A program made the translations under genes and the position numbers. A stretch of 64,000 nucleotides of DNA. Origin: Sialis fuliginosa (taxonomy: Eukaryota > Arthropoda > Insecta > Megaloptera > Sialidae). Below the pieces are notes generated by a model. The model searched no databases and was not told where the DNA came from. It was given only the letters and a program-made list of their open reading frames with translations. Position 1 is the stretch's first letter; each line of letters starts with the position of its first letter. The DNA is taken from NCBI GenBank assembly GCA_961205875.1, contig OY540813.1, positions 4,993,001 to 5,057,000 on the forward strand, in the 5' to 3' direction. Below, piece by piece: positions 1,951-62,448 of the stretch.

Positions 1951-4900
1951 TCAAAAAGTTTCAATATCTCTAGATTCTTCACATTTCACCCATCTGAGAA
2001 CCCGATTTCTGACATCTTTGGGATATACAATGGCAATCACAAAAATCCAAACACCTTGGAGGCTGTTAAAAAGGTCCAGCGTCATCCATACGATACTATC
2101 ATAATTTGAAATCCATGACATAAACTCCACTACCCAAGTAAATGTTAGGAACAAACATAACACCAGCCATCTAAAAAGTGTTACCAATCGTAGACGTAAG
2201 ATCTTATTTGCTTCACTTTCGCCAACATTAGCATGTTCATCTAGTGGTGTTTGGGTTGTAATTGGTGTAAAATTTCTATGTATAATTATGGCAGCAGTGA
2301 TGATAAATATACCAATAATAATGACAACGATGGCCGTTGGAATATAAAAGGTCACATGTGTAACGAAACCAACTGTAAATATAATAAAAATGAATTAGTA
2401 ATTAGCATTATATCTTAAATTTCTGTAGTAACCCACTTAAAAGATTACATTTTCTGAAAGAAAACATTACAGTCTCTAAAATTACTTAGTTTAATATCGA
2501 TTGGTTTTAATTTTTTGTTATAAAAATATAAACAAACTTGAATTTGTCGAGAAATTGAAATTTTTAAGTGACGGCAACATGCTACAGGTCGCAAAACGTA
2601 ATAAATTAACAGAAATCGTTTTGAATTACGTAACTTCATATATTATCAAAATAGAACCCTAATTAAAATCCCGGGCAAAGCAAAATATCTTATCAACTTA
2701 AGCTAGAAACTTATTAAGTAATTACTTGAAAAATTTTGGAAAAAAAATTTATTTTCAAGAGTTTTTTTTTTGCTATCTAAGCATGTAGGTCCTAATCATT
2801 ATATTATATTAAAAATGGTGTCAACAAAAGGGCACCTTATCTTCTTTTGGGGTTAATATTGGCAAACTTCTTATATGTATTCATAAAAAGTATATTTACA
2901 TTCTTCTATTTTAAATTTAAGTAAAATATACATGTACTCAGTAGGTAACGATGGAACCCTAATAATCGGTGTATGCTTAATTGACCCATTTTTTTTGTAA
3001 AACTTACCTTCGTAATAACATAGAAAACACGTTGTTATAAAAATAAACGCTGTAATTCCATACACCAATGCTGTATATATTATCATACATTTTTTTTCTT
3101 GCTTTGGCTCCATTTTTTGACGTAAATAGTAACTGAAATTTAAAAAAAAATAGAATAATTAACAATCAATAAATAACCAAGTAATTGACTGATGGTAGAC
3201 ATAGTAAAAGTAATTTATTTTTAACTATACCGTATATTTAGCCATACATGGAAAGTCAGCACACTCAATGCTAGTACTGCCAATAAAGGTGCGAAGTAAA
3301 TAACGAACGCTGAAAATTCATAATGAATTATTTATAAATTTAATAATCAAATGTATAAAAAAAAACATCTGCCCAGTAAATTCACAGTACTTCTTTCTTG
3401 CTAGGAAATTGAATGCTCTACAAAAATGTTCTATACAATTTTCACGTAACATGTGTCTTTCTTGAGATATCTTGAAAAAATAAATATTTTGGAATGTCAC
3501 CCCTCCCCTTTACGTAAAATTTTAATGATTTTAAAATTGGACCGTCATCAAGCCAGACCCAACCATCTCACCAAGTTGTATTAATATCGGTCCAGTGATT
3601 CATGAGTTATGTGGCAAGGATTCAGGAGACAGACAGATACACAGACAGACAATTTTTTTGTCTCATTTTCAAACGATTACAAAGCTTCTCGTATCTTCGA
3701 TCTTGCGAGGAAGCAATACGAAAATATTTAAATAATCAGTTTTTTCAAACCAATTTGATAAAACTATATATTATTTCTGTTTTATTCCAAATTTTCTAAA
3801 ATAATAAAAAAAAAAAATACTATACCAGAAAAGGAGCAACCACTGTTGTGAGTGTATTGTAAATTTGAGTAAGCCACCATCATAAATGCAATTGTTAAAA
3901 ACGCAGCGTAATGAGCTATAATTTTCCCATTAACATCTCTCAGCTCTGGTATACCCAAGTGTATAAGAAATATTGCAATCAAGAATGGAATCGAAACTAT
4001 ACAAGCTAAAAGAAAATATATTGTTTAAAAAAATTGCTAATTAATGATGTTTTATGATAATAATAAATGTAATGTAATGTAATCTAATGTAAAACCAAAT
4101 TTTCTAAAAAATTTTAGAGTTACGATATATTAGAACTTATCTATAGATATCTAACTTTAAATCTTTGTATTAGAAATAAAATAAATAAAAACCTGCAGCA
4201 CGTAGTATTGATTTGTTATCATCTGTATCACTACAGAAAAAAACTGTCAAATTGGTTGAATTATTTTTATAGTCTAAACAATATTCTCCTATATCTAATA
4301 ATATGTTTCCTTCATCAGTACACAATGATCCATTTTTAAGTATATGATAATTAACTTCAGAAGTGTCATCAAGTAGTGAATATCTAAAACAAAAATATTT
4401 AAAATTTAAATAATCAGAATTACGAATGTCGAGTATTATAAAGAATTTGTTCTAAAGCAAAAGCAAAGTTAATACTATCTGCGAGATGTCAAATCGATAT
4501 TAATTTGCTCATGATTTTACAACAGTGGTAATAAAAGTATAATAATGTAAATGGTATGAATTTTATAATGTACACTTATCACCACTGCTGATTTTTACTT
4601 AACTCGCAATTGTGAGTGGGCAAAGCGTTATCTTAAGAGCAAAGTTATTATAAAACCGGACATAAAAGTACGTACATATATATAAAAGGTAGTGACTTTC
4701 TGACAAAGATTATAGTTGAAATTAAATTTTAGACTTACTTATTAGATTGACACAGTTCTCCAATAACTACAGTATAGTTTGTGTAGTCATCAGATTCCAA
4801 GTCTTGATCTAAATCATAAACGAATGGCTTGAAAATTGGAGATGCGCCGTTAAAACAGCCTGAGAGATCATCATATTGTATTTGTGACAAATCGCAACAT

Positions 4901-5988
4901 TTAGGAAATACAGGTAATGGTACTTTTCCTTTAGAGTACTGAAAATATCAAAAATATATTTTAAATTTTTATACATATTTGATTAAGTATCCATTTATTA
5001 ATTACGTATGGATGATTTATGAAACATTTACCCCCCCCCTCCCCCGCCCCCTTGTAAGGATCAAAAGTATAAGGAAATAAGGTTTTAAAAAATATATTAT
5101 GTATTGCTTAACAAAAATTAACAGACATGCCTTGTATTATCAACTAATTAAATACTCTTTTAAAGGGTGTCCCAGATAACTTTGGTTAAATAAGATAAAT
5201 TATTTGTAAGGAAGGAGTGAGTGTTACTACATCAAAAATAAAATAAAAATTATGTGGTTCAAGCAAACAGTACTTAAAAAACTGAAAATTCTGAATTTTT
5301 TAAAATAGCTATAACTTGTTTTGTTAAAACAGATAGGTATTTTTTGTTTGCGGTTTCTTAAATCACTTTTTTGTGTTAAACTCATTGGTTTTTAGAATTT
5401 TTATATCAATTTTCATTTTTTGAGTTACAAGCCCTAATTTTAGTTTTTCACATGGGCCATTAGAGGCTATATGGTATATTTGTACGTGTTTTTTATAGTA
5501 TTGATTCCAAAACTAAAAAAAAATAATTCAATAAATATTTATTTTATTTCAAATATATGAAATTAAGAAAAAAAGAGGACTCGGACTAGACCGAGCCTGT
5601 TTATTATTGTAAAGTATTTTAACATCCGGAGTAATTGTTGTGATTTGCATGCGCATGTTTTTTGTTTTTGTTGTATTATACACAGAGAATGATCTCTCAC
5701 AGATGGACTCTGTTATACAGTAATGTATCAACCCATTCAAATATATTTTTTAGTTACGAATGTAGTTTTACTAGATGAAGAAAAAATTTGCGGAGGACTG
5801 CGGACTGTCCACGCGGACAGTCCGCTTCCTGTTTGACAGAGCCTTAAGAATATTTCAAAAATAACACTTACCTCATGTACGTATATTTGATTAATATTTT
5901 CCAAATAACTTTCACTAGTAGCACTAGCTGTCAAATATCCACAGTAAATTACTAGTAACGTCCACATTTTTATATTAATTGATACCAT
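1951..5988 (-). CDS. Methuselah-like GPCR (gene 1), complete, 7 exons, 437 aa
   Basis: Secretin-family seven-helix receptor of the Mth/Mth2-like type, at the plasma membrane. Exons on the minus strand: 5988..5872, 4938..4739, 4383..4193, 4005..3826, 3309..3231, 3132..3008, 2372..1951. All sites are GT/AG and the frames join without a stop. Residues 1-39 hold the signal peptide. The ectodomain (40-169) starts with PKCC (C53, C54) and has GEYCLD. TM1-TM2 are in exon 4 with PELRDVNGK, TM3 in exon 5, TM4 in exon 6, TM5-TM7 in exon 7 (FTWVVEFMSW in TM6, LQGVWIFVIAIVYPK in TM7). The tail is very short and ends DIETF. Extracellular loop 2 is the shortest in the array but keeps its cysteine. Start: 5988 is the first ATG; an internal MWT at 5967 aligns with the start of gene 2. 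The family is known for stress-response and lifespan effects in Drosophila. The ligand here is unknown. Confidence 0.92.
4428..4663. mobile_element. MITE, TGTCCGG-ATTATAAAG family, gene 1 intron 2
   Basis: Left end TGTCGAGTATTATAAAG and reverse-complemented right end TGTCCGGTTTTATAATAA form imperfect terminal inverted repeats. The interior resembles copies at 11801 and 26547 (repeated 'aagcaaag' and 'ctatctgc.aggtgtc' segments). It has no coding capacity. It sits between exons 2 and 3 and makes up most of that intron. Confidence 0.6.
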
Positions 5989-6161
5989 GTGTGCACATCA
6001 AAACATTTGATTCTTGAAAACACGTGTTTATAAGTTTGTATTTATCATAAATACAACTGCATAAATTAATGTTTATTTTATAATTAACATATGTATTGCT
6101 TTCAAACGTATTAACTAATTTATTTAAGTGCTTTATAAATTTTATTGAAATCATATATTAT

Positions 6162-10770: not shown

Positions 10771-10799
10771 AATACCTAATTAAAATTCACTTTTGGATA

Positions 10800-13700
10800 T
10801 TATTCATTATTTTTTCTTTCGCAGTTAACAATATTCTTCAATTGATAAATATGTTTTCTGATGGATTTCGGATAAACGACAGCCACGACAAACGGGCAAA
10901 TACCTTGAAGAAAATAAAATATATCTGTCACAATCCATTCAGTTGTATTTTTTTCTGCCGACCAAGAAATAAATCTAAATATCCAACATAACCCCATTAC
11001 AACAATCAATGTAAAACTAATCTTGTACCAAACGGAATGTGATTCTAAGCGATGATTTGTACTGATTATTAATTCTATATCGTCCATATTTTCTGACTTT
11101 AAAGCTTTTCTTGCTTGGGGTAGTCTTTTACATAATATCATTATTGTGTTGATGGATAATAAAACATTGATTAACATACTGACTCCCATAGGTATATATA
11201 GCAACCATTGGATTGACTCTTTTGCTGAAAAAAATAAAAATTTTAATAATCATTTTCAGAGAAATATGAAATATTGAATTTCTTTACGTATGCGGTCTAC
11301 CGTTCTTTATATATTATATATATGACTGCAGGGGTTATTTTAGTGTGTAGTTGTAGCTTGTTTCTGCAGTTCCAAAAATGAAAAATGCAGTTGTAAAAGC
11401 CAATTTATGTAGTTGAAAAATCAAAAAAGAGGGTAGAGGTTAGTAATTATTTAGGGCGAAAAACCGGTTAATATGTTCTTACAAATTTATTGTTAAATCA
11501 AGGGAGTTTTTTAGATTTAACACTGATATCAATTCGATTCTTGTTCAATGTAGACTTTCAGACCTTTCAGTTTAAATATAGTTTTTATTGGATTTTTTAA
11601 GGTAATAATTTAAAATCTATTAAAAATTAGTTTGTAATTTTACTCTCCCCACCCCTCTCTTTCTCCTATCGCGGCGGAGCATTTTAAAAATTTGGCAACC
11701 CTGAATTAAAGAAATATATTAAAACTAAAATAATAATATAAAAAATATGTAGAAATAATAGTATATAGTATAAAACTATAAACTGTATTTTCAATAATAA
11801 CGGTATTATAAAAAAAATCCAGCTAACGCTATCTGCTAGGTGTCAATTGTTATGAAATTGCTCTATATTTTAAAGCAGTGATAATAAATGTATAATAATA
11901 TAAATTCTATACATTTTATGAGGTACCTGAACTTACTTTAAGTCGCTGATTGAACTTATCTCGCATGCGTCAAGGTTATGATATGTACGATTTCATTCTG
12001 TGAGTGTGTTATCATTTATATTTAATACCTAGCAGATAGCGTTGGCTGGAAGCTAACTTTACATTTGCACTCAAGCAAATTCTTTATACCGAGCAATAAT
12101 CAACTTCCAATTGATAAGACAGTAACAATTAATATAAATTGTTTTGGAAAATCCACAATCGTTAAAGTGTTTTTTTTATAACTTTCGCCAGTGTAATTAT
12201 TAATTTAAATGATGTTCTACAATGCATATGTATGTTCCGAGTAATTGAAAACAATGAATGTTTTAATACGTGATATCTATAAATGCATAAAGAAACTTAA
12301 GTTATTTTTAGCATTGTTCTCGGAATTTACAGTTCCTGATAAAACTATTTAATATATTTATGTAAATTGTAACTAATTAGTAAGTATAACATTTATGTAT
12401 ATTAGGGTGGACCAATTTTCCAACCGACCTCAGCTACCCCCCTACGTGAAAGTACTCTCAATTCTAAGAAAGAACTATATCGCTACATTCAACTTTAAAT
12501 CGGCGCATTTTTGATTGAAAATTTTAAGTTTGAGTCCCTTGAATTCAATATGTATGTTAATATACATGAAAAAAATGGATGTCAAATTCGGAATTCTCGT
12601 ACCCAAAAACCCTTGGGTTGGTGTTTTGCTTAAAAAAATCAATAAAAATATTGAATTCAAGGGACTCAAACTTAAAATTTTCAATCAAAAATGCGCCGAA
12701 CTAAAGTTGAATGTAAAGGTATACTTCCTTTGGCGTTCTTTCTTAGAATTGAGAGTACTTTCAAGTAGGGGGGAAGCTGAGGTCGGTAAAATTCCTTCCA
12801 TACAATTTGGCCCACCCTAGTGTACCTATATTAATAATAATGTTATTTTAGAAATACTTACAATGAAAAGAACAAAATGTTGAATCAAAATTGGTCCTAG
12901 TTCCATTTGTATAATGTGAACTTGTATCTAAACATAAATTAATGATAAAGATAAGAACAGACATTCCGTAAGCCCATATTGTGTAAACGATCATCAATTT
13001 CTTGTTTTCTTCTAGACTTAGTGGCTTCTTTAAACAGTATCTGTAAGTAAACATTTAAGCATTGGCACTTTACAGAAACTGTCTCCGTCACCGCTTCGAC
13101 CTTGTAAATCTATTATATGTGATTCAATACAAGTGGCATGTTAGCTGCATCGAAACGGCGCTGCGTTTTGACGCAACTAACATGTAATAGATTTACAAGA
13201 TCGAAGCGGTGACAGAGATCGTTTCTGTAAAGTGCCAAGGCTTTAAGTAGTAATATTAAATTATGTTAATAAAACAAGTTTTGTATTTCATTTTTTTGCA
13301 TTTTACATTTGTTTATAGAAAGAAGGCAATATTTTATTGAATAATTTAAGATCAATGATCTAATGAATATCTGTGATATATATACCTTACCTTAAATCCA
13401 TCCATAAATGGAAACATAATGCATTCAACCAAAAGAAGCTTATCAAGGATGAAAAATTAGTTATGTATGCTGCAAATGAAAACATACATAACATAAATAT
13501 TTATTTACGCAAGTATACAGTCAAGCGATACATATCAGTGCCAAATTTAACGTAGCTTATTGTTATAGTAAAACCATACATAGATATAGAATTAGAGATT
13601 AAGGGTCGATCCAGACTATTGAGCCGGTCTCGGTTCGGTCTCGCTCCGCAATCAAATCTTATGTTTATATTAATTTAATATAATAATCTATGTATGAAGC

Positions 13701-16700
13701 ATGTATATATTATTTTAATTATTTTATTATTATTATTAACAAATATATAATGTTTTGAAAAAAATCCGATTCCGGTTGGCACACCCCTAGGAAATAAAAT
13801 ATTTTTTTAAATATAAATTACCTGTTATTTTACATCCAAAATAACTGAAGCCTCCTTCATTAAATTGAATAAATGTTAATGTAACAAATGTAATTAATAA
13901 GAATCCAATATAGTGAATCAAACATTTTCCTAAAACAGTTCTCAATTTCGGGACTATCACATAGATCAAAAATGTAATTAGCAAGAATACGATGGAAATA
14001 ATCAAAACTAAAAACAAAACAAAATATTAATGAATTATAAACTAACAATTTTAAATTTTACTTAAGCTTGAAAAAATGCCATACTAAGATACTGGCACCA
14101 ATCTTGAACGCTTTAAAAGCAAGGTATATTGATTTTTGTGATAATTAATGTATTAATGGCTATGTTCCGATATACACTGCGAGCACTGTGACTTCTGACG
14201 TCACTCCACTTTACTGGATTGATCGTTCCGTTTTAGATTTTGTATTGGAAACGATGGTGAATTTTCTATAACGGAATACTTTGCAGTTACTGTAGACCGC
14301 CATTTTGAAACTAATGTCAAAATAAAGACCAGATATATTTATAACGATGAAGTGGCCAGATTCATAGTATTTCTATGCAGGACATCACTTTTAATATCCT
14401 CTGATCATATAAAGTACAATAATAAATAAATAATTCAAATATTATTTTCAATAATGAAAAAAATAGCAATTCAAAAAATTTATATTGTTGCGTCAATTTG
14501 CTTAATTATATTAGTGCATTTCAATTAAGGCTAAATTATTTATTCTTATTTATATTTACTTTTGATTATAAATTATATATACCATAAATGTTATTAATTC
14601 ATCTTCAAATAACCTGATAATAAAAAATACATCGAAAGTTAACCTTAAATGCATCTGCTTCTGTCAATTGCATTCAAATTTTGATCACGTGATCAGAGTA
14701 CTGTGAGCACAGATGCAATAAAGCTACAGTACTGGCAGTAGTAAAATGGCGGCGATCAATGACGTCATTGATATTGCTAGGATACTGTAACAGAGCACTG
14801 GAAGCCATAACGGAACGCAAAATCCAGTAACTGTCACCACTGGCCAGTGCTCACAGTGTATATCGGAACATAGCCAATATTCAGTAATGGCAGTAATCAA
14901 ATATCAACACATATTTCTAATTCAGTACATGTTCAACATTGGGGTATTGTTCAAGGCTGGTTCCAGCACCTTATTTATCATTTAATTTTTTTTAATATCT
15001 AGGGAAGATCAGAACATTTTATATCAGATTATAACTGCCCTTATTATAATTAAATTATATCAATTATTTTCCTGGCAGTTTATATAAATATATTTATGTT
15101 ATGTATAATCTAATCGTTTACAAATAAAATATAAATCGATTTATTTTCTACCTGCTGCATGAATTGCTCCACTTTTTGCAGTCAATGAATCTGTACACAA
15201 TAGAGCTGTAATATCAAACGTGCCGTTGATTCTATCTAAGCAAAACTGTCCAACGTTTAATAAATTCGGTTCTAAATGGGGAACAAATAATGTACCATTT
15301 TCCAATACATAATATTCATCTTTAAATTTTTCTGTATCCAATGCAAATCTGAAAAAAATAATACATAATTATTAAAAAACAAAATAGCTTTGTTATGTAA
15401 AAACAGGCCCAATAATAAAAATAATAATTAATACTACCCCCTCACTTAGTACGCAATTTTTTGACATTTATTTACATATTTAACTTTTTTATCTGACCTG
15501 TCAGAAACGATAAAATGAAGAAAAAAAATTAATTATACAAAATATATTTTATTTATACTGCATAAAAGTTTAATATAATATTATAGCAAGAAAAATTTAG
15601 TTATCGCATGCTTCTGTTATATAAATATCTACAAATTCGTGAATTGAAAAAAATATGTTCACAATAAGTAGGACACAAAACCAGATCTTTTATTGTGATT
15701 GTCGGTTGAATGCGTTAACAATTCAGTTATTGCTATCTATTGTACTTCTATAGATTTATGTGCCATAGTTTAGTCTTTCTAGTTCGATTGAAGACTAGAT
15801 AATAAATATTTTTGATTTATGTCATTGAATAAAAATCTTACTAAAAATATTAAACGTAAAAAATATTCATCATTATTTTTTCCACACATAATTATAATAT
15901 CATGTTTAAATGTAATTTATTATACACTATTATCTCACCTACGTGTATATCATTTGATAAATTTCTTTTAAAATACTTTCTAACTTATATTTTTGACAGT
16001 AACAAATATTAATGTTATTATAAATTCAAAATATATTTGCAAAATACCACGCCGACAGCAAATTTTTTTCCGACTTAATTTACTATTATCGTCACTGCTT
16101 AGTTGTTATGTTACCTAACGTAACAAAATATAGCCTATAACCTGGCCAGAGAACAGACACGTTGAGCTTTATATATATGTATATATAGATTACCTATACT
16201 ATACCTCCTATGAAGTTAGATAACCAACGTTCAATACTTACAATCCATATTTACATTGATGTCCAACAACAATAGTCAACTGTGTGTATGAATAATTGTT
16301 AATACTCGAATCGTTGAGTTCATATAAATCTGGCATGAAGACCATAGGAGTCCAGCTATCCACACATCCTGTTCCTTCATTACTTTTGTCCTGTGTGAGG
16401 TTGCAACATTTAGGAACAATAGGCGTATCGAGTGTTGAATTGTCATCAAAATACTGTAAAACAATTATCTTTTTTTAAACTCGTATTAATAAATCAATCA
16501 CAGTGTGATTTTATATTTTATATTTTACTGATGTATCTAAAATTCTAAAGAAATTAATTATATGGGACAAACATACTTTTTAACTCGTAAAAAGACTATT
16601 TTCAATTTTGTGATCGAAGGACAAATTTCTATGAAAAGTGAAATTAAAACCATGAAAGTTGACGAAAAAATTTTGAGTTTTCGATTTCATTCAGTTGAAA

Positions 16701-17574
16701 TTTTCAAACCGCTGATCTGTATCTCAAACCGTTCTCGAGATATGGCCTCTCAAAGTTTCAGTTTTATCAAAATTTTGGAGAAAAATAGCTGTAACTTTTG
16801 AACGCGTGGTTGAAGTTGATTTTCGTTGACGAATTTGAAATCATCACCAAAATGAACATTTTATATTATTAATAGTGGTTTTTTAAATGAATCACAACTT
16901 TTGCGGTTTAGTTATTTAAAATAGCGTATAATTGCCCATAGGCTGATTATCAGGCCCGGATTTACCATGCAGGCAGAGTAGGCAGCTGCCTAGGGCGGCA
17001 AATTTTGGTGGAAACTTTGAAAACTTGTTATATTCCTGGGAATTGAATTTGATTTTGATTCTATTATCGATGAGTTTGCCATCCGAAAATCGAGACGTAA
17101 TAATTTCAACCCATAAGCAATAATTTCTCTATACATGTAACTCAAGCATGACTAAAAAAAAAAGGTCTTCAGTTTTTATGTTTCCTAATGTAACTTTATA
17201 AAAATTTATAAAATTTGAAACTGACGCAACCAAAAACAAAGATCCTGAGTTTTATATTTTGACATCTATGACTTAAACTGTTAGTTTCGAGGGGGGGGGC
17301 AATTTTCGCAACTGCCTAGGGGCGGCAAATTTCTAAATCCGGGCCTGCTGATCTTTACATGTTAAAACAAACCGGAAGGGCATGAGATATGACTATTAAT
17401 TAAGATTTATACATACAAAATGTTGAATATAGATAAATAAGAAAAACATTACATAAAAAATAAATATGCACTTACTTCATATATCGATATAACATTCAAA
17501 TCTTCAAATACTTCATCATTTATAACATTAGTTAATAAAAATCCCAACGTTATAAAAACTAAAACCGTCCACAT
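10800..17574 (-). CDS. Methuselah-like GPCR (gene 2), complete, 7 exons, 458 aa
   Basis: Second receptor of the array. Exons: 17574..17476, 16453..16242, 15348..15152, 14007..13822, 13469..13391, 13040..12862, 11224..10800; frames join with phases 0-2-1-1-2-1. Exon 1 encodes a 33-residue signal-peptide exon starting MWTVLVFITLGF. The ectodomain has PKCCNLTQD, VVGHQC and GQFCLDRINGT, with several N-glycosylation sites. TM1-TM2 (about 170-231) have VPKLRTVLGK and end at FGCKITG. TM3 is in the 79-bp exon, TM4 at about 273-291, followed by a long loop 2 with TFCSFH. TM6 carries MGLCWIFRFISW and TM7 carries LQGICPFVVAVVYPK. Closest in sequence to gene 3. A TCAGTA initiator-like site at 17613..17618 would put transcription start about 40 bp before the ATG; there is no downstream element to support it. 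Ligand unknown. Confidence 0.92.
11801..12094. mobile_element. MITE, CCGGTATTATAAAG family, gene 2 intron 6
   Basis: The ends read CGGTATTATAAA and, inverted at the right, GCTCGGTATAAAGAATTTGC. The inner inverted pair CAGCTAACGCTATCTGCTAG (left) and its complement near 12040 mark a second layer of symmetry. The copy at 26547..26883 has the same interior. Confidence 0.65.
12403..12819. repeat. Near-perfect ~417-bp palindromic element, gene 2 intron 6
   Basis: The tips read TAGGGTGGACCAATTTT and, inverted, TAGGGTGGGCCAAATTG. The arms are reverse complements nearly to the centre (about 12600), including TGAGTCCCTTGAATTCAATA against its complement. Because of the symmetry both strands carry matching spurious open frames. 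A TA duplication at the tips would fit a Tc1/mariner-type MITE, but this is inference. Confidence 0.85.
13064..13236. repeat. 173-bp foldback palindrome, gene 2 intron 5
   Basis: The left arm GGCACTTTACAGAAACTGTC is mirrored by the right arm ending GTTTCTGTAAAGTGCC. CCGCTTCGACCTTGTAAATC and the 'catgttag' core are also mirrored. It begins 23 bp downstream of the exon 6 acceptor on the plus coordinate, so the hairpin would lie at the 3' end of the intron. Confidence 0.85.
14158..14875. mobile_element. 718-bp non-autonomous DNA transposon, gene 2 intron 3
   Basis: Exact terminal inverted repeats GGCTATGTTCCGATATACAC (left) and its reverse complement at the right, continuing into GAGCACTG. Both flanks show the trinucleotide AAT, compatible with a 3-bp target duplication as made by PIF/Harbinger-type elements. 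No transposase remains in the interior. Confidence 0.8.
16600..16855. repeat. Fragment related to the hAT foldback arm, gene 2 intron 1
   Basis: It shares the segments TTTCAAACCGC, TGTATCTCAAACCGTTCTCG and GAGATATGGCCTCTCAAAG with the arms of the foldback elements at 6170 and 36196, but more diverged and one-armed. No tips are visible, so it is a fragment or a relative. Confidence 0.65.
16951..17347. mobile_element. hAT MITE, CAGGCCCGGATTTA tips, gene 2 intron 1
   Basis: The left tip CAGGCCCGGATTTACCATGC and the inverted right tip CAGGCCCGGATTTAGAAATT match for 14 bases, followed on both sides by CTGCCTAGGGCGGCAAATTT-like subterminal blocks. The flanking octamers ctgattat and ctgatctt agree at 6 of 8 positions, a decayed hAT-size duplication. 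The interior carries the phrase AAAAAGGTCTTCAGTTTTTA, shared with other elements here. Confidence 0.85.
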
Positions 17575-21277: not shown

Positions 21278-24200
21278 TCAAACATTATCTGCATTGGTAA
21301 GTTCAGAAACAATTGGATTTACATTATTTTTATTATCATTTAAACCATTCAATTCATACCCATCTTCGGATTTCTTCCAAAAACTGTGGTAGCATTTTCT
21401 TAAAGCATAGTAGACGTCATTCCTTATTGGTTTTGGATAGATAATAGTTACAATAAATATAGTCACGCCTTGCAAACCATTAAACATATCGAATACCATC
21501 CAAACTACGTGGTCACTTCCGGTTGCCCATGAAATAAATTCGAAGCACCAACTGATTCCCATTATGAAAAATAACATGAAGCATATTTTAAGCCACCTGG
21601 AGCACTGTCTACAACGTAATTTCATGCTGGCTATGAACTCGAATTCTTCTGTATTACTGATGTCCACAGATTTCTTTGTTTGGGGTAACTTGTTACATAA
21701 TGTAATTAGTGTAATGATGAACATGATCACATTGATCGACATGCTAAGTCCCATAGGACCATAGAAAAACCATTGTGCTGATTCTTTAGCTAAAAATTTT
21801 AAATGTATTAATTAACGGTTCGTTTTAAAATTAATTTGCGTTATTTACAAGGCTATAATATTTTTAAATAAATAGGGTGTTAAAAAATGTACTGTATTTA
21901 TAATAGTCAAAACTTTAAAAACATCGGTTCGATCGGTTGGGATAATTTTTAAAAACAAACTCTACTTGGGAAGTTTGCAACGATACATCGAAACATTTTC
22001 ACTCTGATTTTTCCCAAATAAAATAAAGATTTTATTTTTAATTTTGTACACGGAACAGAAGCATATTTTTGATGTTTTTTAAGTTTTACTGGGAACTTTT
22101 TGAACACCCCATAATTTACCCCAGAAGCTGATGCTTGTTGAAAAAAAAACACCAGTATAGTATACAAAATATTATTTATTGTAAATTAAGCTTATATGAA
22201 TTTTAATAATGATAACAAATGTTCATTCATTAGACAACAAAACGCCCCGAGGAAAAACTAGATCTACGTAGATCAAATAAGATCCATTTTTTTCAATTTA
22301 GATTTACGTCAACTACCGTCAATCTTCTTAGATAAGATCTACGAAGGTCTGTTAAACAAAGATGGCTCTGTTTTCAAGTCAAATGTATGGTCCATTAGAA
22401 TGGTCCTTATATGGGGTTAGGACGAATATTGACCGGGCCGCCCCCTAAATCAGCTCCAAATAATTTAAAAAGAATTTGGAAAAAGTTTCCGTCCTTTATC
22501 TTAAAAAATGGCCATTTTATGAGTAGGGGATGCTTTCATGAGTATTCTAGATTTTTAGAAAGAGTTTAAAAATCGATGGTAATGGCCATTTTTTAAGATA
22601 GAGAGCTGAAACTTTTTCCACATTCTTTTTGAATTATTTGGAGCTGATTTGGGGGGCGACCCGGTCAAAATTCGTCCTAACCCCATATAAGGATAACCCT
22701 AGTGGTCCATGCTCTATGTCTATGGTTCTAATATATTTTTTTCTAGTCTAATTTTCACTATACTATAAAGCAAAACTAAACTAATCATGCTATTTTGAAT
22801 AGTTCCTGTTCTTCAAAGTGTTTGCTATTCTTTCTCTATAAACCATGCAAACTGTCTTGATCTTAATTAAATGTATTATAAATAAACTCTTTAAAAACTT
22901 ACATTTATCATTATAATGGTGACGTAAAAAATTTGTCAAGGGTTTAAAATCTTCCAAAATAAACAAAAAAATAATTAGAATTTTTGTATTGTTACGTAAG
23001 AAAAAATACTCTTATAACGGTCCAAATATAATATTTGGGACATTAATAGTTAACTCTATCAAAGAAAAACGTTACTTTTAGGGATTTCCATAATATTCGC
23101 ATATACTATAGTTGTCCGGTATTATAAAGGAGCTCGCAATTTTGCTAGCTTGCAAGCACTCGCAAATGAGATATCAAACTTATAAGACAGTTCTCTTGGA
23201 GTTTGTCGAAGACTTTGACAAGTTTCGCGCACACGTTGTAGGTAAACACTATTAAAATAGTGGAGATATTATGAAAATTATTTTGTACTAAATAAATTTT
23301 GTAGCTAATCCATAGATACTAGTACATAATTAAGTGAGTACTTGCAAGCTAGCAAATTTTGCAAGCTCCTTTATAATACCGGACATTAAACTTGCTTAAA
23401 AAACATAAGTTTCATTAATTATTTCGCAAATTTTTTTTGAGCAAGTTTAATAACATATGTCAATATTATGAAAATTCGTAAAAGTAGCGTTTTTCTAGAA
23501 TGACCCATTTGCAGATAAAAAGTATGCAATATTATTACAAGAATGTCTGACTACTAGTATATATAATTCATATAGACATTTCAAAATAACTATAAAAATA
23601 TTTGACCAAGGTCAATTAAGGTTCATTTAGATTTAATCAGTATTAGTTTCACGTTTCTACTCAAAAATACTATTACCGGATTTAATATCAGAAAAAAAAT
23701 CAAAAAACAAACCACAGCTTGAAGCAAAAAATTCAAAATAAATAAATACAACACTTGACAAAAATACGAATATTTATTTTCAGTTTTGGTACTTACATTG
23801 GAACCAGCATGAAGATTCACCAAAACCAGGTTTAATAAGTCTCTTTGGAACGCCTGGAAGAATATCCATGAACAGTGTGATAACAAATATAACAGCAGGT
23901 ATGCCATAACCACATCCAGAATATATTAGCATTTTATTTTTTGTTTCTTCTGGTTTTAACTCTCTATCCAAATAGAATCTATCAAAAAAATATATTGTTA
24001 ATTTAAATCGAACTTTTAAAATTCTTTAACAACAGTTTGAAAAAGATAACCGATGATGTTTGTCTTTATATTTTCGAATCTGTTGTATAGTGAGCGATTC
24101 TGATCTTCAGGGTGGCAGACGACTTCTGAATCCCATAGTACGTGCATTAGAAGTTATAATTCTTTGGCATAGTAACATATAGCGTGCAAATACAAAACTA

Positions 24201-27200
24201 AAACCTGTTTTACCGACTGTCATAACAGAAATCTTTATTATGTTCATTTCCGTTGCATAGCTAAAATTTCACCCTGAATACGCCTAAAGAAGTATAACTT
24301 CAAAAAAATATTATTATTTAAAATCGAACTTTTTAAGTCCATGAAACAGCAAAAGTTTGAAAATATAAGCCATCTTTGTAAGAAATAAAATTCTAATAAT
24401 AGGAAAATTTTGAGACATATTTTTTTAGATAAACTATAAATATAATTATGACAAACAATTGAGTACAGAATTATTGTGACACTATTTATTATACTTACTT
24501 AACACTCATATAAAGATGTATGCATAATATATTTAACCAAACGAAGCTCAACAGGAATGAAAATTGAATAACATAAGCTAGAAAAAATATAGAAATTATT
24601 AATATAATAAATATAACTATCGTAAATTATCTTATTTGAGAAAGTATAACAACTAAGAGAAAATCTTTATATAAAATAGAATTATTTATAAACATGTCAG
24701 ATATTTACTTTAATAGCAATAAATATTTATAACTTGTATATCTATAAATAAATATTAATGTATTATATTTATACAACTAAATATTAATATTATTGGTAAA
24801 TAAGCAAGTTAATTTTAATTAATAAATGGTACATGTATAAAATAGCTATAATTATTACTGTTTTTGTTCTTAAATCGGGGTATATATAGTAAACAATGCA
24901 ATGATTGGCACTTTAAGCTGAATCATTGGCATCATATATCGTAAATTATAAAATTACTCTCCGTTTCCTGTTGTAAATGTATAATTTTTTAACTTAAAAT
25001 AAATATTTTTAAATGATATTTTAATGATAAAATCCTTATTATTTGTTAATAAAGTCAAGTGTGCTAATGATTACTGATTTGCCAAAATTAGTATACCTTA
25101 CCCTACTAAGAAAACAGTATTTAACAAGTTAACAATAACAACAGTTAATCAAGGATGAAGATGATTATGTACATAATTACAATAATAAAATACCTGTAAT
25201 AACGCAGCCAGGATTCTCTAGACTCTCGCCATTAAGTTGTACAATAGCCAAGGCTATAAAAGCGATCGTTAAGAATCCCACGTAGTTTGCTAAAATTTTT
25301 CCATACAAGTCTCTTAATTTCTTGATTCCCAGAAATACGAACAACGTTGCTACCAAAAATGGGATTGAAATTATCAGAGCTGCAAAGAATAAATAATAAA
25401 CATTTTTTTTTTTTTGGTCGTACATCGGTGCAACATTAATTCAAATTATATTTCAAGTGCACTGAAGATGTCCACTGCAATGTGTGACCAAACATTGGCC
25501 GATAATACGATCAAATCGACGCGGCTTACACCCACAAGTCAAGATTTATATAATATTTATTTGATATCAAATTTATAAAATCAAGAAGAATAGTTATTTC
25601 AACTTCTATAAGGTTCATATATATTTTTATTATTAGATATATTTTTGAATAAAAATAATTAAAAATATTACCTGCTGCATAAACCATCATTTTCGCTTTT
25701 GAACCAATATTTTCTGCAGTTAAAGACTCAAAACACAGCAATGGTATTACTTCAAGTGTTCCTTGTATCCGATCTAAACAATATTCTCCAATTCTTCTAT
25801 GTTTTGGTTTCAAATGAGGCGTAAATATTCTACCGTCATTTAATAAATAATATTCATCTTCGGAATATTTATTGCTGTCTAATGAAAACCTGAAAATATT
25901 CAAAAATTAGAAAATAATTTAAATTAAATACGATCTAATTTCAAAATTTATATTTAAGGTTGATTACAATAGATCTACTTAGATCCACATAACTCTTTTA
26001 GAAGAAGAAAAATTAAAACTACTTTGACCAAAGATCTACATAGATCTACAATTTACCTCTGCCATCTTTGTTTCTTATATTAGTTCTACATAGATCTACT
26101 TAATTAGATCTAACAATAAGAAACATAGATGGCCGAATTAAATTTTTGATCAACGTAGGTCAAATTAGATCTGCGTAGATCTATTTCTTCAAATTTCAAA
26201 TCTATTGGTAGTATAAAATTTTGCAATTGATTTGCAATAAACAATAATTGGATTAGAATTTTGAGTAACCAACTTGACCTTGTGGCATTCATTAAATTTT
26301 AGAAATTACTAAAAATATATAAATTTATTTTCGTAACACTATAGCTTACATTTTCCAATAGCATAAACATTTTAATATAAATTGATTATAACATTTTAAA
26401 CAAGTGCACAGTAAGTTAATCATTGAAATACATGTCGTATAAATTATAATTTTACTATATATTTTTTATTATAAGATCCAAAAGAATTATTCAGAGCCAA
26501 AACGACTAACCCCACTTTTAATTGATATACTCAATCAAAAAATATACCCGGAATTATAAAGAATTTGCATGAGTGCAAATGCAAATTAGCTTCCAGCTAA
26601 CGATATCAGCTAGGTATTAAATATAAATAACAACACACTCACATGTAGTGAATGAAATCGTAAATATCATAACATTGACGCATGCGCGATAAGTACAATC
26701 AACGACTTAAAATAAGTGCTGCCAAGTGTACCTCATAAAATGCATAGTATTTACATTATTATGCATTTATTCTTACTGCTTTAAAATATCCAGCAATTTC
26801 ATAACAATTTGACACCTAGTAGATAGCGTTAGCTGTAAGCTAATTTGTATTTGCACTTTAACAAATTCTTTATAATATCGGGCAATAGAGAAATATACTG
26901 CACATTCTATGTATTAAGATAATGGTCACGTTCACGACTGACCAAAAACAGTGAACAATGAACTTTGATTGGTTGATTCATGGAATTTCTGGTGGAATGT
27001 ACCAGAAATTAAAAGAATGCCATTTTTTAAGCGTGTAAGGAAGTGAGAAAAAAGTAACTAGAAAGAGATAGAAACTAGTGGCTAACCAAAGAACTTTTAT
27101 ATTCACTTCATATTGGGCGTTTCTGCTAGAACACTAGTTTCTATCTCCTTCTGGTTACTTCTTTCTCGCATCCTTACACGCTTAAAAAATGGCATTCTTT

Positions 27201-43525: not shown

Positions 43526-43858
43526 GAGTAGATGTATAAGAGAAAGATGGATGAATAGTGCATGCATACAAGTCACTTTACGTCGGTTATGCGTAAAAGA
43601 GAGATGAGTAAATGTATAAGAGAAAGATGGATGAATAGCACATACGTACAAGTCACTTTACGTCGGTTATGCGTAAGAAAGAAAGAGAGATGAGTAAATG
43701 TATAAGAGAAAGATGGATGAATAGTGCATGCATACAAGTCACTTTACGTCGGTTATGCGTAAAAGAGAGATGAGTAAATGTATAAGAGAAAGATGGATGA
43801 ATAGCACATGCGTACAAGTCACTTTACGTCGGTTATGCGTAAGAAAGAAAGAGAGATG
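43526..43858. repeat. Minisatellite with alternating 80/86-bp monomers
   Basis: Four monomers start at 43526, 43606, 43692 and 43772, with spacings 80, 86, 80 and 86. Types alternate: A has GTGCATGCATACAAG and ends GCGTAAAAGAGAGAT; B has GCACATRCGTACAAG and ends GCGTAAGAAAGAAAGAGAGA. The unit of amplification is therefore the 166-bp A+B dimer, present twice. Open frames crossing it are artefacts of the repeat. Confidence 0.92.
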
Positions 43859-51401: not shown

Positions 51402-54400
51402 TTATACTACGTCTACTGTAGAATTAGGAATAACCTCATTTTTTGGGGTTATGTCATTTTTGGAACACTTAATTTTTGTACAAACATTTTCCTTAATCCA
51501 ATTTGCAGTAGCAACACGAACTGTTTTTGGGTAAATACAAGTAATACTGAATACACAAGCACCATAGAAACCATTCATAAAATTAAAATATTGACCTTTT
51601 CCGTCATTTATTTCAACGTAGACCATATCTGACACCCATCCGAAAGCAGTCAATAATAAGATTGCTGCACTTATCTTTAGCCATTTAGCGTTTTCTCTCA
51701 TACGCAACTTCATGTCGGATTGAAACTTGAAGGTTTCCTCGTTGTATATATCCAAAGGACGTTTTGTCTCGGGTAACCTTTTTCTGAACTCAAGTATAGC
51801 CCATAAAAGTAGTATCATATTAACACAAAGGCTGATTGCAATTGGTAATTGGAAAAAATATCTCACCCCTTTCTTTTTAGCTGAAATTAAATAAAAACGT
51901 TAATAATATAATTATCCCACAATTTATCCATACTAATATTATAAATGTGAAAGTAACTGTCTGTCTGTCTGTTTCTTAACTTTTCACGGCTAAATCGCTG
52001 AACCGATCTTAATGAAATTTGGCAGGGAGATATCTTGCTTTCTGAGAAAGGGCATAGGCTACTTTGTATCCCGAAAAATGTATTATATAGCTAGTTACTT
52101 ATAAATGTAGAGTCGCATGCAGAAGTGGTCGACCAGTTTTCATTCAAATTCGCTTATCACAAATTTAAATTAGTAGACTTCTCTCATTTGATTATTATAA
52201 TATTTAAATCTTTTCTCCATGTACCAAACAAAGACAGATATTTTGATAAAGAAATACCTACTATATTTGTGCGATTAAATTATTTTATATGTAATCTATT
52301 GAAAACTGTATAAGTAAATTTTGTGGCAATAATTATATCATATTACGAATTTTGAGTATTTAAATATGTTAAACTTGAAATAAAATTAATTAATGAAATG
52401 GACGTATATTGTGTTTTTATTTAAAATGATGTTACTATAGAAGCACCGCCCTAGAAAAATATAAGCGATGGTGTTTTTCTTAATATTTTTGAATCTGTTG
52501 TAAGCTATTCTGACCTTTAGAGTGGCAGACGACTTCTGAAGCCCATGTACTTAAGTATTATCATTTTGTATATCGTAATTATTAAAAAATTTCACCTTAA
52601 TGTATTTTTATGTTCTTTTTTTACTTACGGAACAACAAACAGCCATAGTCTTCATAGATACGCACTTGATTTTTAAATATATCCATTACCCATATTAGAA
52701 CAAGCACCAGTGCTGACATTCCATATGACCAAGTAGCGTACAGTTTAAAACTATTTTTGTTTTCTTTATTTGTCATACTTCTTTCTAAATAATATCTGCA
52801 AGATATCAAACTTACTTGTTAATTTATCAATTTTAATTGACATAGTAGCTAACTTTTCGGGCTGTTGTCCTCGTTGTTGTACTTTTAAACTTGACGTTTC
52901 GACTCTCATGTCGGAGTCTTCTTCAGAAGTGTTTCAGAAAATTAACTACTATGGACAACGGCCACGAAAGCCTACAGAAGGGAATTTTAATTGACATTTT
53001 CGGTGATTTTTTAACATTTTTTTAGAGGGATTAGCTAAGGCCGGCACTGTTTCTGAGGTATAATAACCCGAGAAGGTAATGCTAGAACCCAACTGCATCT
53101 GTAATGAGAATGCCGGCTCTGACACCGGCATCGGTTTTGCCGGTGTGTGGATAAACGCCCTAAGAATAGTACATACCTGAAATTTAACAGCACGTTATAA
53201 CTCAATGTTGTCATCCATATGCAACTCATCAAATAAGTAGATTGCATTATATAAACTAAAAAAAATAACTATATCATATTAATAATATCTAAAAATCTAA
53301 AACATTCTAAGCTGATCAGTTTTTGTAATTGCAATAATGATATCAGGAAAAAGCCTAGCGTTTTTGGGGGTAATGGGGAGACTCTATCTAATAGATAGTT
53401 GGTTAAATTTTTCGAACGGTGAACATTCTTATGGTAACCTAACCTAACACATATTTTAATATTTTTTTTTCTTTCTTTTTAATAGGGGCTTTATATTTCT
53501 TTCACCTTGAGCCTCAAATACGAGCCTAGATAAAAAGATATGTAGTTTTATAAAAGTGTCTCATGAAAAAATGAATAAGCCATACCTGACATTTTACAAT
53601 TATGATCATTAACAGTCTGTACAAGATCCTTGAATGTAATTGACAAAAATGTTATAGATAAAAATCCAACGTAGTTCAGCAATATTTTTGTATACAGTGA
53701 GTGTAATTTTTCTACAAACATGTATATACAAAATGTCAAAAATATAAATGGAACTGAAACACATACACCTAAAAATAAAAATAAATATTATTGTTAAAAT
53801 ACGTTTCAATAATTTTAATTTCAAGAAAAATGTAACCCCGATCAAATGTCTCTATTTTATCTGTTAAAAAATGTTAATTTTAATCCTAAAAATTATGCAC
53901 CAAGTGATTTTTTTAATATAGAGACAAAAACAACTTAAAATTTATATTTTTAACTTTCCCTTTTATTTTGTAGATTTAGGCCCTCCGCACACGGTGCGAC
54001 TGTTTTGCAACGAGAATCGCAAACCAGTTGCGGAAGCAACTTTTTACAACTGGTTTGCAATCGATTTAAGTCCTCGCTCCGCACACGAGCGCAATTGAAT
54101 CTTGATCAGTCGACAGTTTTATGGGAATTGCCGGGAAGAAAAAACGCGATTTTTTTTTAAGTTTTTAAGTTTTTTTAACTTTTGGCAACATGTCAAGCAT
54201 TCTTGAATACCTAGGAAGGTTATAATTGTATAGAACTTCATGTTTTTCCACCTCCTCAACAAATTTAATGTTTATTAACTGATCATTTATTCTGAATGAA
54301 CTAACTATGAAGGTAGTTATTAATAGGAATAATGATAATTAACTAATAATTTTAATTATAAATAAATAATAATATTATTATAATTATAAAGCTAATTCGA

Positions 54401-56886
54401 CCTGCAAGCACAGTTGCATGAAACCAGTTCAGTTTTGTTTCGGTTGCACCGTGTGCGGAGGGCCATTACGTTACACGTGCAAAGTCACCAAACGGTTGCT
54501 TAGACTCTTCGGTTTTCGAAAAACTATAATAAATTTTAAAAAACAATTACCTGCTATGTAAATAGCTTCTGGTTCCGAAATACTGCCACAAATAAAATGT
54601 TGTATTGCATCATCAGGGGTAACTCTATCTATGCAATATTCACCAATCGGATATTCATCAGATTCAAAAAACAAACTGCCATTTGGTACAATAAAAGTGC
54701 CATCAGGAGAAAATCTGAAATTTTAATATAAATAGTAAGTAACTAATAAATATTCTGACAATAATTTAAAAAAAGGTCTTCAGGCAATGTGAAATGATTT
54801 TTTTTAATGCTGTATATATTTTTTTTAAATGGGGATCCGAATATTTATTCTAGCTGAGGCCTCCACTATTTATAATATATATTATAAAAAAAATCACACT
54901 CATGGTAATATACAAGTTTTGAGGCTTCTGCGGCGATCTGAATATGGATCTTGGTTTCTGGGTGTAAGCCGCGTCGATTTGATCATTATATCGGTCAGCA
55001 TTTCGTCTTCTTTCTTTTAGAAGAGCACTGAAGATGTACACTACAATGTGTGACGAAACGTTGTCCAATAACACGACCTAATCGACGCGGCTTGCACCCA
55101 GAAGCCAAGATCCACTCATGGTGATATGTTTATAAAATATTATTTTTACTTACAGGTGTGTTATTTCACATCTTAATCCAATTATTACAGTAAGATTATT
55201 ATGTTTTGTATCTGTCGTCTTAAATTTTGGATTGAAATTGTAATTTTTTATACTTGCTTCACAGTTTGTATAGGAATCTCCTTCTGTCTTCACGGTTTGG
55301 CCAAATTCACAGCATTTAGAAACGATTGGACGGTTGGTTTTGTATACACGTGCTGGAGTCTATATTAAAACTAAATTAAATATACAAACGATCTGTGGCG
55401 TCGCTAGAAGGGTAGAACCCGGGGCGGAAATCGATAGTGTCATCCCTCTCCCCCAAAAAAAAAATATCTGCCTTGGGAACCACGGGACTTTCTTATACCT
55501 AACATAACCTAACCTAACAGTGAATTGTATACGTGATTCTTTGTTTATTAAAACATTTCTAACAAACTAATAAGAAAGAACAAAATGAATAATTTTATAT
55601 TTATATAACAAGTGATTTTTTTTAACGTAATAACTGTAAACGGATGTTTACTCTTGTAAATTTTTGGATTTTTGAATTATTTTTGAAATAAGAAAAAAAT
55701 GTTTTAGATAAAAAATGTCGAGTATGTTATTATCTATAATTTATTCCCCATACATTTTTTCCAACATTTATGATTTAGCCAGAAAGAATTTTTTTATGTA
55801 ATTATTTAGATTCACCTACACAGTTCACTCTCAGTATTACGTATAAGAATGTCCCATGTTACCTACGGCAAATACACACACTGTTCAATCTCTGTAATAC
55901 GTATAAGAAAGTCCCATGACACTCATGGCAGATATTTCTCCTCTGTTATAAACCATTTGAATTATAATTTTTTTTTTTTTTTTCAAAAATTCGTTTTTAC
56001 AAAAAAATGAATAGAACATAAATTATAGATATAGATATTACCTACATTTTTTTAACTTGACCATTTTTTTCTATTTCGCACTGTTTCAGAGTAATTTGAA
56101 AAATTAAAAAATCGACGTAGGTAAACATCCGTATCCGGTTGAAAGATCGTTTTCAAAAATAGGACGTTTTCTTCCCAGCCAAAAATTAATTTTAAATATA
56201 AAATATCACCCTTCTACGATTTGTCGTATTTGAGTTACAGCGCTTACAGACGGACACACAGACATCATGGCGAAAATAGTCAGAATGGATTAAGGGAAGG
56301 TCAAAATAGATAATTCCGTCAAAATCCGAGGTTCGAAAAAAATCGGCTTCACTATACTTACTTATACTAATGTATATTTCATATACCTACATGGTATAAG
56401 AAAGTCAAAACAATATGTTTTATTTTTTGCACATAAGGTGTGAATTTTTAACAACAGAAAATATAACAGTGTGCTTTATTTTTTTTAAATAAACGACGAT
56501 TATCTCCCCTTTATAAACTTTTAATGACCAAAAACAAATCAATTGGCTCAATTTCTGAAACATTTTATCCCCTGGAAGCTTTAAATAACCAAAAAGGAGG
56601 TAAACATGTGGGAGGGGTGTCACCTAGGGTGGACCACTGAAAACCACTTTTTCGATGTAATAATTAATATGCACATAAAAATTTAATTTAGAATTAATAG
56701 TTTCGACAGAATTTTTTTTTTAAATTCGCTTATTTTTGTCTGCCTTCTTAAAAAAAATAGATTATAAAATATAAAAATTATAAATACCTTGCGCAATGGA
56801 TATGGAATTATCGTAACAGAATCATCTGTATACATAGAAGAATCACAAATTTGAAGCAATAACAGTGTTATTAAAATTATCAACAT
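51402..56886 (-). CDS. Methuselah-like GPCR (gene 4), complete, 7 exons, 458 aa
   Basis: Fourth receptor. Exons: 56886..56788, 55359..55154, 54714..54551, 53768..53586, 53255..53177, 52795..52629, 51880..51402; phases 0-2-1-1-2-1. The start is the ATG at 56886 (MLIILITLLLLQICDSS, a strong signal peptide); the frame upstream has only a TTG, and a TTTTTTTAG tract at about 56908 looks like an acceptor of a 5' UTR exon. The ectodomain has SKCCEFGQ and GEYCIDRV and is the shortest of the five (exon 3 is 164 bp). TM1-TM2 follow with VEKLHSLYTK, loop-1 cysteine in HNCKMSG, loop-2 cysteine in YGCLLF. TM6 is diverged (TAFGWVSDMVYV) and TM7 reads FYGACVFSITCIYPK. A Lys-rich tail ends STVDVV. Ligand unknown. 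Confidence 0.91.
51928..52090 (+). repeat. Interspersed CTGAACCGAT repeat, gene 4 intron 6
   Basis: CCATACTAATATTATAAATG, CTGTCTGTCTGTCTG, GGCTAAATCGCTGAACCGAT, AATTTGGCAGGGAGATATCT and GGCATAGGCTACTTTGTATC in order. This is the fullest of three copies (others at 8784 and, inverted, 60331). Confidence 0.75.
52455..52545 (+). repeat. Dispersed repeat, third copy of the GTTTGTC unit
   Basis: AAGCGATGGTGTTTTTCTTA, GAATCTGTTGTAAGC and GAGTGGCAGACGACTTCTGA match copies at 24047 and 33058. In gene 4 intron 6. Confidence 0.6.
53979..54464. mobile_element. 486-bp MITE with GGCCCTCCGCACACGGTGC tips, gene 4 intron 3
   Basis: The left end GGCCCTCCGCACACGGTGCG and the inverted right end GGCCCTCCGCACACGGTGCA match for 19 bases. 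It carries internal repeats of AACTGGTTTGCAATCG-like segments. There is no open frame and no exact flanking duplication. The tip style suggests a Harbinger-like element; this is inference. Confidence 0.85.
54925..55120. repeat. Penelope-like inverted fragment, gene 4 intron 2
   Basis: GATCTTGGTTTCTGGGTGTA and AGCCGCGTCGATTTGATCAT at the left are mirrored by AATCGACGCGGCTTGCACCC and AGAAGCCAAGATC at the right. Between them is AGCACTGAAGATGTACACTA and GTGTGACGAAACGTTG. The last phrases are of the kind seen in Penelope-like elements. A single-armed copy is at 25457. Confidence 0.45.
55800..56400 (-). repeat. Dispersed repeat, partly inverted relative of 28780..29510
   Basis: TTACGTATAAGAAAGTCCCA occurs twice in diverged form (about 55840 and 55900), and CACCCTTCTACGATTTGTCG with GCGCTTACAGACGGACAC is the inverted counterpart of 28920..28980. 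In gene 4 intron 1. Confidence 0.5.
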
Positions 56887-62100: not shown

Positions 62101-62448
62101 TGGGGAATTTTTACTCAGATTTGGCAATTTTTAATGTAATTTTACTGGACTATATTTATTATAATAAAAAAATCAATACATTAAACAATAATATTTACTA
62201 ACTAATGCCAATATGAAGCAGCACTAAGGTTATACTTAAATACAATTAAAATATCAAACTTACTATCCCCCTTCACATGTTTCCTTAATAACAGCAGTTA
62301 ACTTTGTATAATTAGTGGTTTTCATTTCAAAATTATATATTATGGGCTCAAATGATGATACATCTATACAATCAAAATCTGAATAACTTTGGCCAACTTT
62401 GCAACATTTTGTCACTATGGGTAAACCAAGCGGTGTAGAATCGAAATT
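59191..62448 (-). CDS. Methuselah-like GPCR (gene 5), exons 2-7, signal exon not found
   Basis: Fifth receptor, 5' incomplete. Exons: 62448..62264, 61772..61552, 60967..60788, 60679..60601, 60186..60023, 59750..59191, giving 462 residues from the second exon. Phases (2-1-1-2-1 after exon 2) and the 79-bp TM3 exon match the others. The ectodomain has TKCCKVGQ, VIKETC and GEYCLE with several N-glycosylation sites; exon 3 is the longest of the five. TM1-TM2 follow with IKELNDHFGK and DYCKIIG; loop 2 has KTCSLY. TM6 (AIPLWIADVINY) and TM7 (FHGFYGVCVFFAILIYPK) are the most diverged. The tail of about 75 residues, rich in Thr, Glu and Lys, is the longest. A signal-peptide exon with a phase-0 donor is expected upstream; none convinces up to 64000, so it probably lies beyond the window. 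Confidence 0.9.
60331..60483 (-). repeat. Interspersed CTGAACCGAT-type repeat, gene 5 intron 5
   Basis: Reverse complement order: CATACTAATATTATAAATGT, GAAAGTAACTTTGTCTATCT, AAACCATTTTGATGAAATTT, GGCAAGGAGATAGCTTGCAT, GGACATAGGCTACTTTATAC. Inverted relative to 51928. Confidence 0.7.
60988..61393. repeat. ~406-bp palindromic element, gene 5 intron 3
   Basis: ACTCATCAAAAAATTTAAAG is mirrored by CTTTAATTTTTTTGATGAGT. Inner pairs include TATATCTCAGCGAAAAATGA and ATCCAAAGCTCATTCGTAAG with their complements, around a short unique centre near 61190. The left tip lies only 21 bp from the exon 4 acceptor. Confidence 0.88.
61862..62151. repeat. Element with inner 170-bp palindrome, gene 5 intron 2
   Basis: CACTGGAGTGGTTGGTGTTA and CAAGAGATCAAATGTCAACA at the left are mirrored by TGTTGACCTTCGACCTCTTG and TAACACCAAACACTCCAGTG. 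The outer tips AGCCCAGTTAAAAATT and, inverted, AGTCCAGTAAAATTAC are imperfect inverted repeats, flanked by ATATT on both sides. Confidence 0.75.

Follow-up and report, generated by a model that had tools for sequence, protein, structure and literature searches.

A probable old tandem array of seven Methuselah-like receptor genes with a shortened ectodomain in Sialis fuliginosa

We analysed a stretch of 64,000 nucleotides from Sialis fuliginosa (subsequently designated the window; positions 4993001-5057000 of contig OY540813.1, here called C5), which belongs to a genome of 392,097,322 bases in 20 contigs. An earlier note on the window had described five minus-strand Methuselah-like (Mth-like) G protein-coupled receptor (GPCR) genes in one head-to-tail array with intron phases 0-2-1-1-2-1, and had thought that more copies might lie beyond the 64 kb. 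The region was widened by 100 kb either way of the window (264 kb searched in all), every stop-to-stop frame was compared with all others, and exon borders were placed at in-frame GT-AG sites. Positions are given as window positions; the numbering runs on through 0 to the left of the window and past 64000 to its right. Seven class B receptor genes, A, B and g1 to g5, were recovered, all located on the minus strand, head to tail, and covering 79.9 kb in total. Five of them (g1-g5) lie in the window, except that exon 1 of g5 is located just right of it, while A and B, additional copies of the kind that had been thought possible, were found in the flank just to the left. Being neighbouring paralogues in a single orientation, seven of seven on the minus strand, the genes constitute a tandem array. 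Scanning the 264 kb with exon profiles revealed no copies beyond these seven below an expectation value (E) of 0.01; for relics in the gaps the scan gave only a few matches between E 0.01 and 1.

Genes A (-14884..-10472) and B (-8737..-4119) are followed by g1 (1951..5967; 466 aa), whose exons 1 to 7 are located at 5872-5967, 4739-4938, 4193-4383, 3826-4005, 3231-3309, 2900-3132 and 1951-2372. Gene g2 (10800..17574; 458 aa) comprises exons at 17476-17574, 16242-16453, 15152-15348, 13822-14007, 13391-13469, 12862-13040 and 10800-11224, and its product matches the Pfam family 7tm_2 at E 8.6e-17. A match to 7tm_2 at E 1.9e-27 was obtained with g3 (21278..37354; 492 aa), which has exons at 37265-37354, 27501-27712, 25672-25889, 25194-25379, 24499-24577, 23797-23978 and 21278-21789; its exon 1 stands behind an intron 1 of 9552 bp. 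Gene g4 (51402..56886; 458 aa; 7tm_2 E 7.6e-13) is composed of exons at 56788-56886, 55154-55359, 54551-54714, 53586-53768, 53177-53255, 52629-52795 and 51402-51880. The last gene, g5 (59191..64969, window part to 64000; 491 aa), has exons at 64883-64969 (outside the window), 62264-62448, 61552-61772, 60788-60967, 60601-60679, 60023-60186 and 59191-59750, and does not match 7tm_2 on its own. Since exon 1 of g5 lies outside the window, the phase of its first intron could only be inferred from the window itself.

All seven genes consist of seven exons with intron phases 0-2-1-1-2-1, and open frames of 448-494 codons run through each of them; the five window genes contain no internal stops, which bears out the gene structures proposed by the earlier note. 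GT-AG borders were found at all 42 introns (donor GTAAGT in 16 of 42), and exon 5 measures 79 nt in every gene. The division of domains among the exons, likewise proposed before, is kept throughout the array: exon 1 encodes a signal-peptide-like start, exons 2 and 3 the ectodomain, exon 4 transmembrane helices (TM) 1 and 2, exon 5 TM3, exon 6 TM4 and exon 7 TM5-7 plus the tail. In an alignment of eight proteins, introns 3 and 4 of all seven genes fall into one column each, and introns 1, 2 and 6 lie within 5 columns. Intron 5 occupies one column in six of the seven genes and is displaced by 17 columns in B, where it stands beside an insertion. One long tblastn match had raised the possibility that exons 5, 6 and 7 are fused in B; this was rejected because the exons are in separate frames.

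The models differ in certainty. Exon profiles from which the gene in question had been excluded recovered exons 2, 3, 4, 6 and 7 in all seven genes (E 3e-5 or better), and it is through these exons that the homology of g5 to the other array genes is established. For exon 5 this succeeded in four genes (A, B, g2, g3), for exon 1 in no more than two (g2, E 0.0089; B, E 0.29). Therefore, exon 1 rests on its place, the phase-0 donor and the hydrophobic, signal-peptide-like start, which reads MW in five of seven genes. The least certain exon 1 is that of g4, with the weakest donor of the seven (AAG|GTATTT). The least certain model as a whole is g1, which carries weak donors (GTTTTT after exon 3, GTATAG twice) and an odd extracellular loop 2, and gives no 7tm_2 match.

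Hydropathy analysis predicted seven helices in six of the seven proteins, and Pfam 7tm_2 (PF00002) scored above the cut-off in five (A, B, g2, g3, g4); membership in class B is thus documented for the array, not for each member. The ectodomain following exon 1 comprises 123-143 residues and corresponds to the Mth ectodomain minus roughly its N-terminal third. When a profile of the seven ectodomains was compared with the PDB, the sole matches among 177,635 distinct sequences at E <=5 were 2pzx (E 0.0043) and 1fjr (E 0.0047), both of which represent the Drosophila Mth ectodomain. By this profile the array belongs to the Mth/Mthl family in the wide sense. Like Drosophila Mth and the ectodomain-positive Mthl proteins, the array proteins possess a class B seven-helix (7TM) core, and CC, C, C, NG and EYCL are in line with chain residues 65-168 of 2pzx/1fjr. 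They differ in having six ectodomain cysteines versus ten and in missing the N-terminal part of the ectodomain. The six cysteines are invariant in all seven genes, some of which carry one or two extra, mostly in the signal peptide, and the four N-terminal cysteines of the ten that define the Mth ectodomain are absent from every one. The proteins stay below the Methuselah_N cut-off; a match below it was given by g1 only (18.1 bits versus 21.5; E 0.00042 with its ectodomain alone). The ectodomain start, described as PKCC-type in the note, reads PKCC in A, B, g1, g2 and g3, SKCC in g4 and TKCC in g5, so that KCC alone is invariant. The YPK-type end of TM7 was found as described in g1-g5; outside the window it is YPR in A and FPK in B. 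As judged from sequence, the assignment to the Mth family is right, though it needs one restriction: the array ectodomain is Mth-related, but retains six of ten cysteines and misses the N-terminal part. By analogy with the family, the array receptors would presumably bind a secreted peptide or cytokine via the ectodomain and signal via G proteins.

A search of the genome with g3 returned 44 matches at E <=0.01, of which 28 fall in the array. The remaining 16 comprise six near 2.0 Mb and five near 23.0 Mb on C5, four on contig C2 and one on contig C10. Seven of these 16 were read as genes, namely the six near 2.0 Mb on C5 and one on C2. The other nine Mth-like matches are located at C5:23.00-23.04 Mb, at C2:0.513 and 1.89-1.90 Mb and at C10:7.14 Mb; the five on C5 at 23.00-23.04 Mb are on the plus strand, spread over 40 kb, and perhaps represent another cluster. 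The matches near 2.0 Mb correspond to K1 (locus L044; C5:1993-1999 kb), a gene of the ordinary Mth-like type 3 Mb from the array, and a second gene beside it, K2 (locus L045), which was modelled as TM exons only, with the same borders as K1. The C-terminal ends of both are provisional. The ectodomain of K1 is encoded by one exon, contains ten cysteines, scores 39.2 bits with Methuselah_N (cut-off 21.5) and matches the Mth ectodomain in the PDB over chain residues 5-172 (E 1.5e-7).

The gene structure of the array was compared with that of K1. Behind the ectodomain exon of K1, the intron phases are 1-1-2-1-2 and the TM3 exon measures 79 nt. K1 and the array share the phases 1-1-2-1 of introns 3-6, the 79-nt TM3 exon and the TM core. 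Because introns 3-6 are common to both, the phases 1-1-2-1 are not specific for the array. In contrast, the ten-cysteine ectodomain of K1 is unsplit, whereas introns 1 and 2 split that of the array; the last exon is divided by a phase-2 intron in K1 and K2 but unsplit in all seven array genes, and TM7 ends with VCK/VCR in K1/K2 versus a YPK-like motif in the array. Relative to K1, the array-specific traits are thus the first two introns and the undivided last exon. The earlier note had taken the identical phases as a sign of duplication, and this argument stands only in part: the phases 1-1-2-1 of introns 3-6 recur in genes 3 Mb away. In an alignment of ten proteins, the six cysteines of the array stand with the last six of K1. 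Searches for a remnant of the N-terminal part gave a best match of E 0.056 when that of K1 was compared with the seven array first introns, and no cysteine-rich phase-0 exon was present in intron 1 of A, B, g1, g2 and g4, the five scanned.

The gene on C2 (C2:36654001-36656202; L031:1-2202) is Mth-like as well and matches g3 at E 1e-52. It shares with the array a KCC...NGTLF...EYCLE ectodomain and the 7TM core, but differs in that a single open frame runs over the positions where introns 2-6 would stand, and in a long N-terminal stretch rich in Ser, Thr and Asn. It is possibly an old retrocopy.

Four trees were computed: a seven-protein tree, an untrimmed and a trimmed eight-protein tree (the latter with 363 columns) and an unrooted ten-protein tree (369 columns). 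In the ten-protein tree the array and K1, K2 and the C2 gene lie on opposite sides of a branch with 100/100 support; the array is related to these three, in a tree of this genome's Mth-like genes only. A scattering of the genes over the tree, named in the note as the result that would speak against it, did not occur among the genes of this genome. In the same tree the five window genes form one group (93.4/77), from which g3 is the first to branch off. Genes g4 and g5 stand together in all four trees (seven-protein 78; untrimmed 94.4/61; trimmed 94/70; ten-protein 53.6/68). The proposal that g2 and g3 are the latest pair is not supported: the pair appears in one of four trees, the untrimmed one, at 4.8/36, the trimmed tree unites g3 and B (93.1/69), and the seven- and ten-protein trees contain neither pair. 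When the trimmed tree was constrained, the approximately unbiased test gave p values of 0.079 for g2+g3, 0.616 for g3+B, 0.566 for g4+g5 and 0.066 for g2+B, none of which is rejected at 5%. Identities within the array range from 24 to 44%, g2-g3 and g3-B both reaching 44%, and the synonymous divergence (dS) is at least 1.4 in all 21 pairs, with synonymous sites near or at saturation. Since every pair shows this dS and both g2-g3 and g3-B stand at 44%, there is no recent pair. The proportion of nonsynonymous differences (pN) is below that of synonymous differences (pS) in 21 of 21 pairs. To judge by these substitution patterns, the array copies are old and under purifying selection. Their divergence suggests different ligands or expression sites for the copies. 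Noncoding similarity was considered as a sign of recent duplication and discarded: blastn matches between gene regions are mostly non-exonic and repeat-like, plus two short exon matches, and date nothing.

Taken together, the data very probably reflect an old tandem array of seven Mth-like (class B3) receptor genes, whose founder was shortened and whose copies multiplied in place. A ten-cysteine Mth-like ancestor would have lost the N-terminal part of its ectodomain along with four cysteines; we infer this loss because the ten-cysteine state is common to Drosophila Mth and K1. The ectodomain would then have become split by two introns of phases 0 and 2, and the intron inside the TM5-TM7 exon would have been lost or never been there. 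Subsequently, unequal crossing over would have multiplied the single founder, all copies keeping one orientation and diverging to 24-44% identity under purifying selection. The tandem duplication of an intron-bearing Mth-like ancestor, as put forward in the note, is supported by seven copies of one layout and their 100/100 split from other Mth-like genes. Whether the genes moreover represent a distinct short-ectodomain Mth subclass, in which a founder lost the N-terminal disulfide part, remodelled three introns and gave rise to at least seven fast-diverging receptors with a ligand site unlike that of Mth, appears to us evenly balanced.

Several observations weigh against this reconstruction. 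The intron changes are presumed to have run in the direction given, on a comparison within one genome; the trees hold genes of the S. fuliginosa genome only, K2 entering the ten-protein tree as its TM part, and seven of the 16 outside matches are covered. The branching order within the array has poor support and shifts from tree to tree, and the trimmed eight-protein tree places the C2 gene, its sole outside sequence, beside g1 (55.5/31). The splice sites of all 42 array introns are predicted from DNA. At the protein level, g4 has only five helices above the hydropathy threshold, g1 and g5 alone lack a 7tm_2 match, and Methuselah_N (PF06652) is above the cut-off in none of the seven proteins. 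Finally, g1, with its weak donors and unusual loop 2, may be decaying. Extended to part of the array, this last point would mean that some copies, beginning with g1, are pseudogenes whose frames have stayed open. Besides the donor GTTTTT after exon 3, GTATAG used twice and the missing 7tm_2 match, g1 shows a gap in TM6 and no cysteine in line in loop 2. However, decay of this kind is unlikely given frames that are open over 448-494 codons in seven of seven genes and pN below pS in 21 of 21 pairs.

Shared phases could also simply mirror an old Mth-like gene structure and be silent on tandem duplication, the genes then being old, separately kept paralogues that are neighbours by chance. The near or full saturation of synonymous sites in 21 of 21 pairs fits such an origin, as does the recurrence of introns 3-6 (1-1-2-1) and the 79-nt exon in K1 and K2, 3 Mb away. 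We nevertheless consider it very unlikely, as seven of seven array genes have introns 1 and 2 and an undivided last exon, features absent from K1, as K2 (modelled for its TM exons) has the split last exon too, as the 100/100 branch sets the array apart from the three other genes, and as all seven copies share one orientation with no further copy found within 100 kb. Hardly conceivable is that the Methuselah label is wrong and that the genes encode class B GPCRs of the adhesion or secretin type. Adhesion GPCRs are indeed the best PDB matches of the whole-length profile (ADGRL3, E 4.5e-19), and no array protein reaches the Methuselah_N cut-off; but the PDB entries of Mth are ectodomains only, so that no Mth 7TM was there to be matched, and the ectodomain profile matches Mth alone. 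Moreover, g3 matches the C2 gene at E 1e-52, and the ectodomain of that gene is of the Mth type (KCC...EYCL), whereas a tblastn comparison of the seven proteins with nine loci round other 7tm_2 matches, each 3-10 kb long, returned nothing at E 0.01. One of these nine loci looks latrophilin-like.

The old tandem array with a shortened founder can be set against known Mth systems. According to De Mendoza et al. 2016 (PMC4768249), ten cysteines define the Mth ectodomain, most of them are kept in Drosophila Mthl2-4 and 7-12, and the family is described as having expanded repeatedly, most of all in insects; such multiplication is reported to include a Drosophila mth cluster (PMC4768249, PMC3655951). 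The array shares repeated multiplication with these lineage-specific expansions as they are described there, and here all seven copies share six cysteines. For Apolygus lucorum, the six tandem events listed in the sources (among PMC12653341, PMC8660763, PMC3655951, PMC8256857, PMC5083930) are without Mth-like genes. Hence, multiplication of Mth-like genes is ordinary in insects, and it is the shared shortened outer domain together with an intron layout of their own that distinguishes the present copies. Our literature search returned no description of a short-ectodomain Mth array with its own intron pattern; most subscription journals were outside its coverage and novelty is unproven. Mth-like receptors tie together lifespan, stress and immunity in flies, and fly Mthl10 is reported in PMC6439351 as the receptor of the cytokine GBP. 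A founder lacking a defined, structurally solved ectodomain part would offer a natural test of the ligand-binding part, for which the ten-cysteine K1 would serve as a control, and the intron changes would serve as a marker for dating the expansion.

Some further features surround the genes. Contig C5 carries TTAGG/CCTAA repeats at both ends, and such chromosome ends fit an arthropod. The GC content of the window is 25-31% (4-kb steps), and the 264 kb round the array are poor in long frames: 12 stop-to-stop frames reach at least 140 codons, seven of which are the last exons of the array genes. Between B and g1, at -3494..1174 (window part 1-1174), lie two copies of an element that are 98.4% identical over 698 bp and have the ends CAGGGCCGGC/GCCGGCTCTG. 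They are in direct orientation, 3.3 kb apart; the 8 bp ACTCATTC stand in both outer flanks and GTAAAAAA in both inner ones, which looks as if the pair and its filling moved as a unit or the filling entered from a circle. A hAT label for this element would rest on the 8-bp flanks and a short SGERSFSKLK frame. Copies of a palindromic element resembling a miniature inverted-repeat transposable element are located at 6170-7066 beside g1, at 36196-36945 in intron 1 of g3 and at 16693-16843 in intron 1 of g2. Between g3 and g4, positions 43525-43863 are occupied by a tandem array of about four copies of an 80-bp unit with 90% matches.

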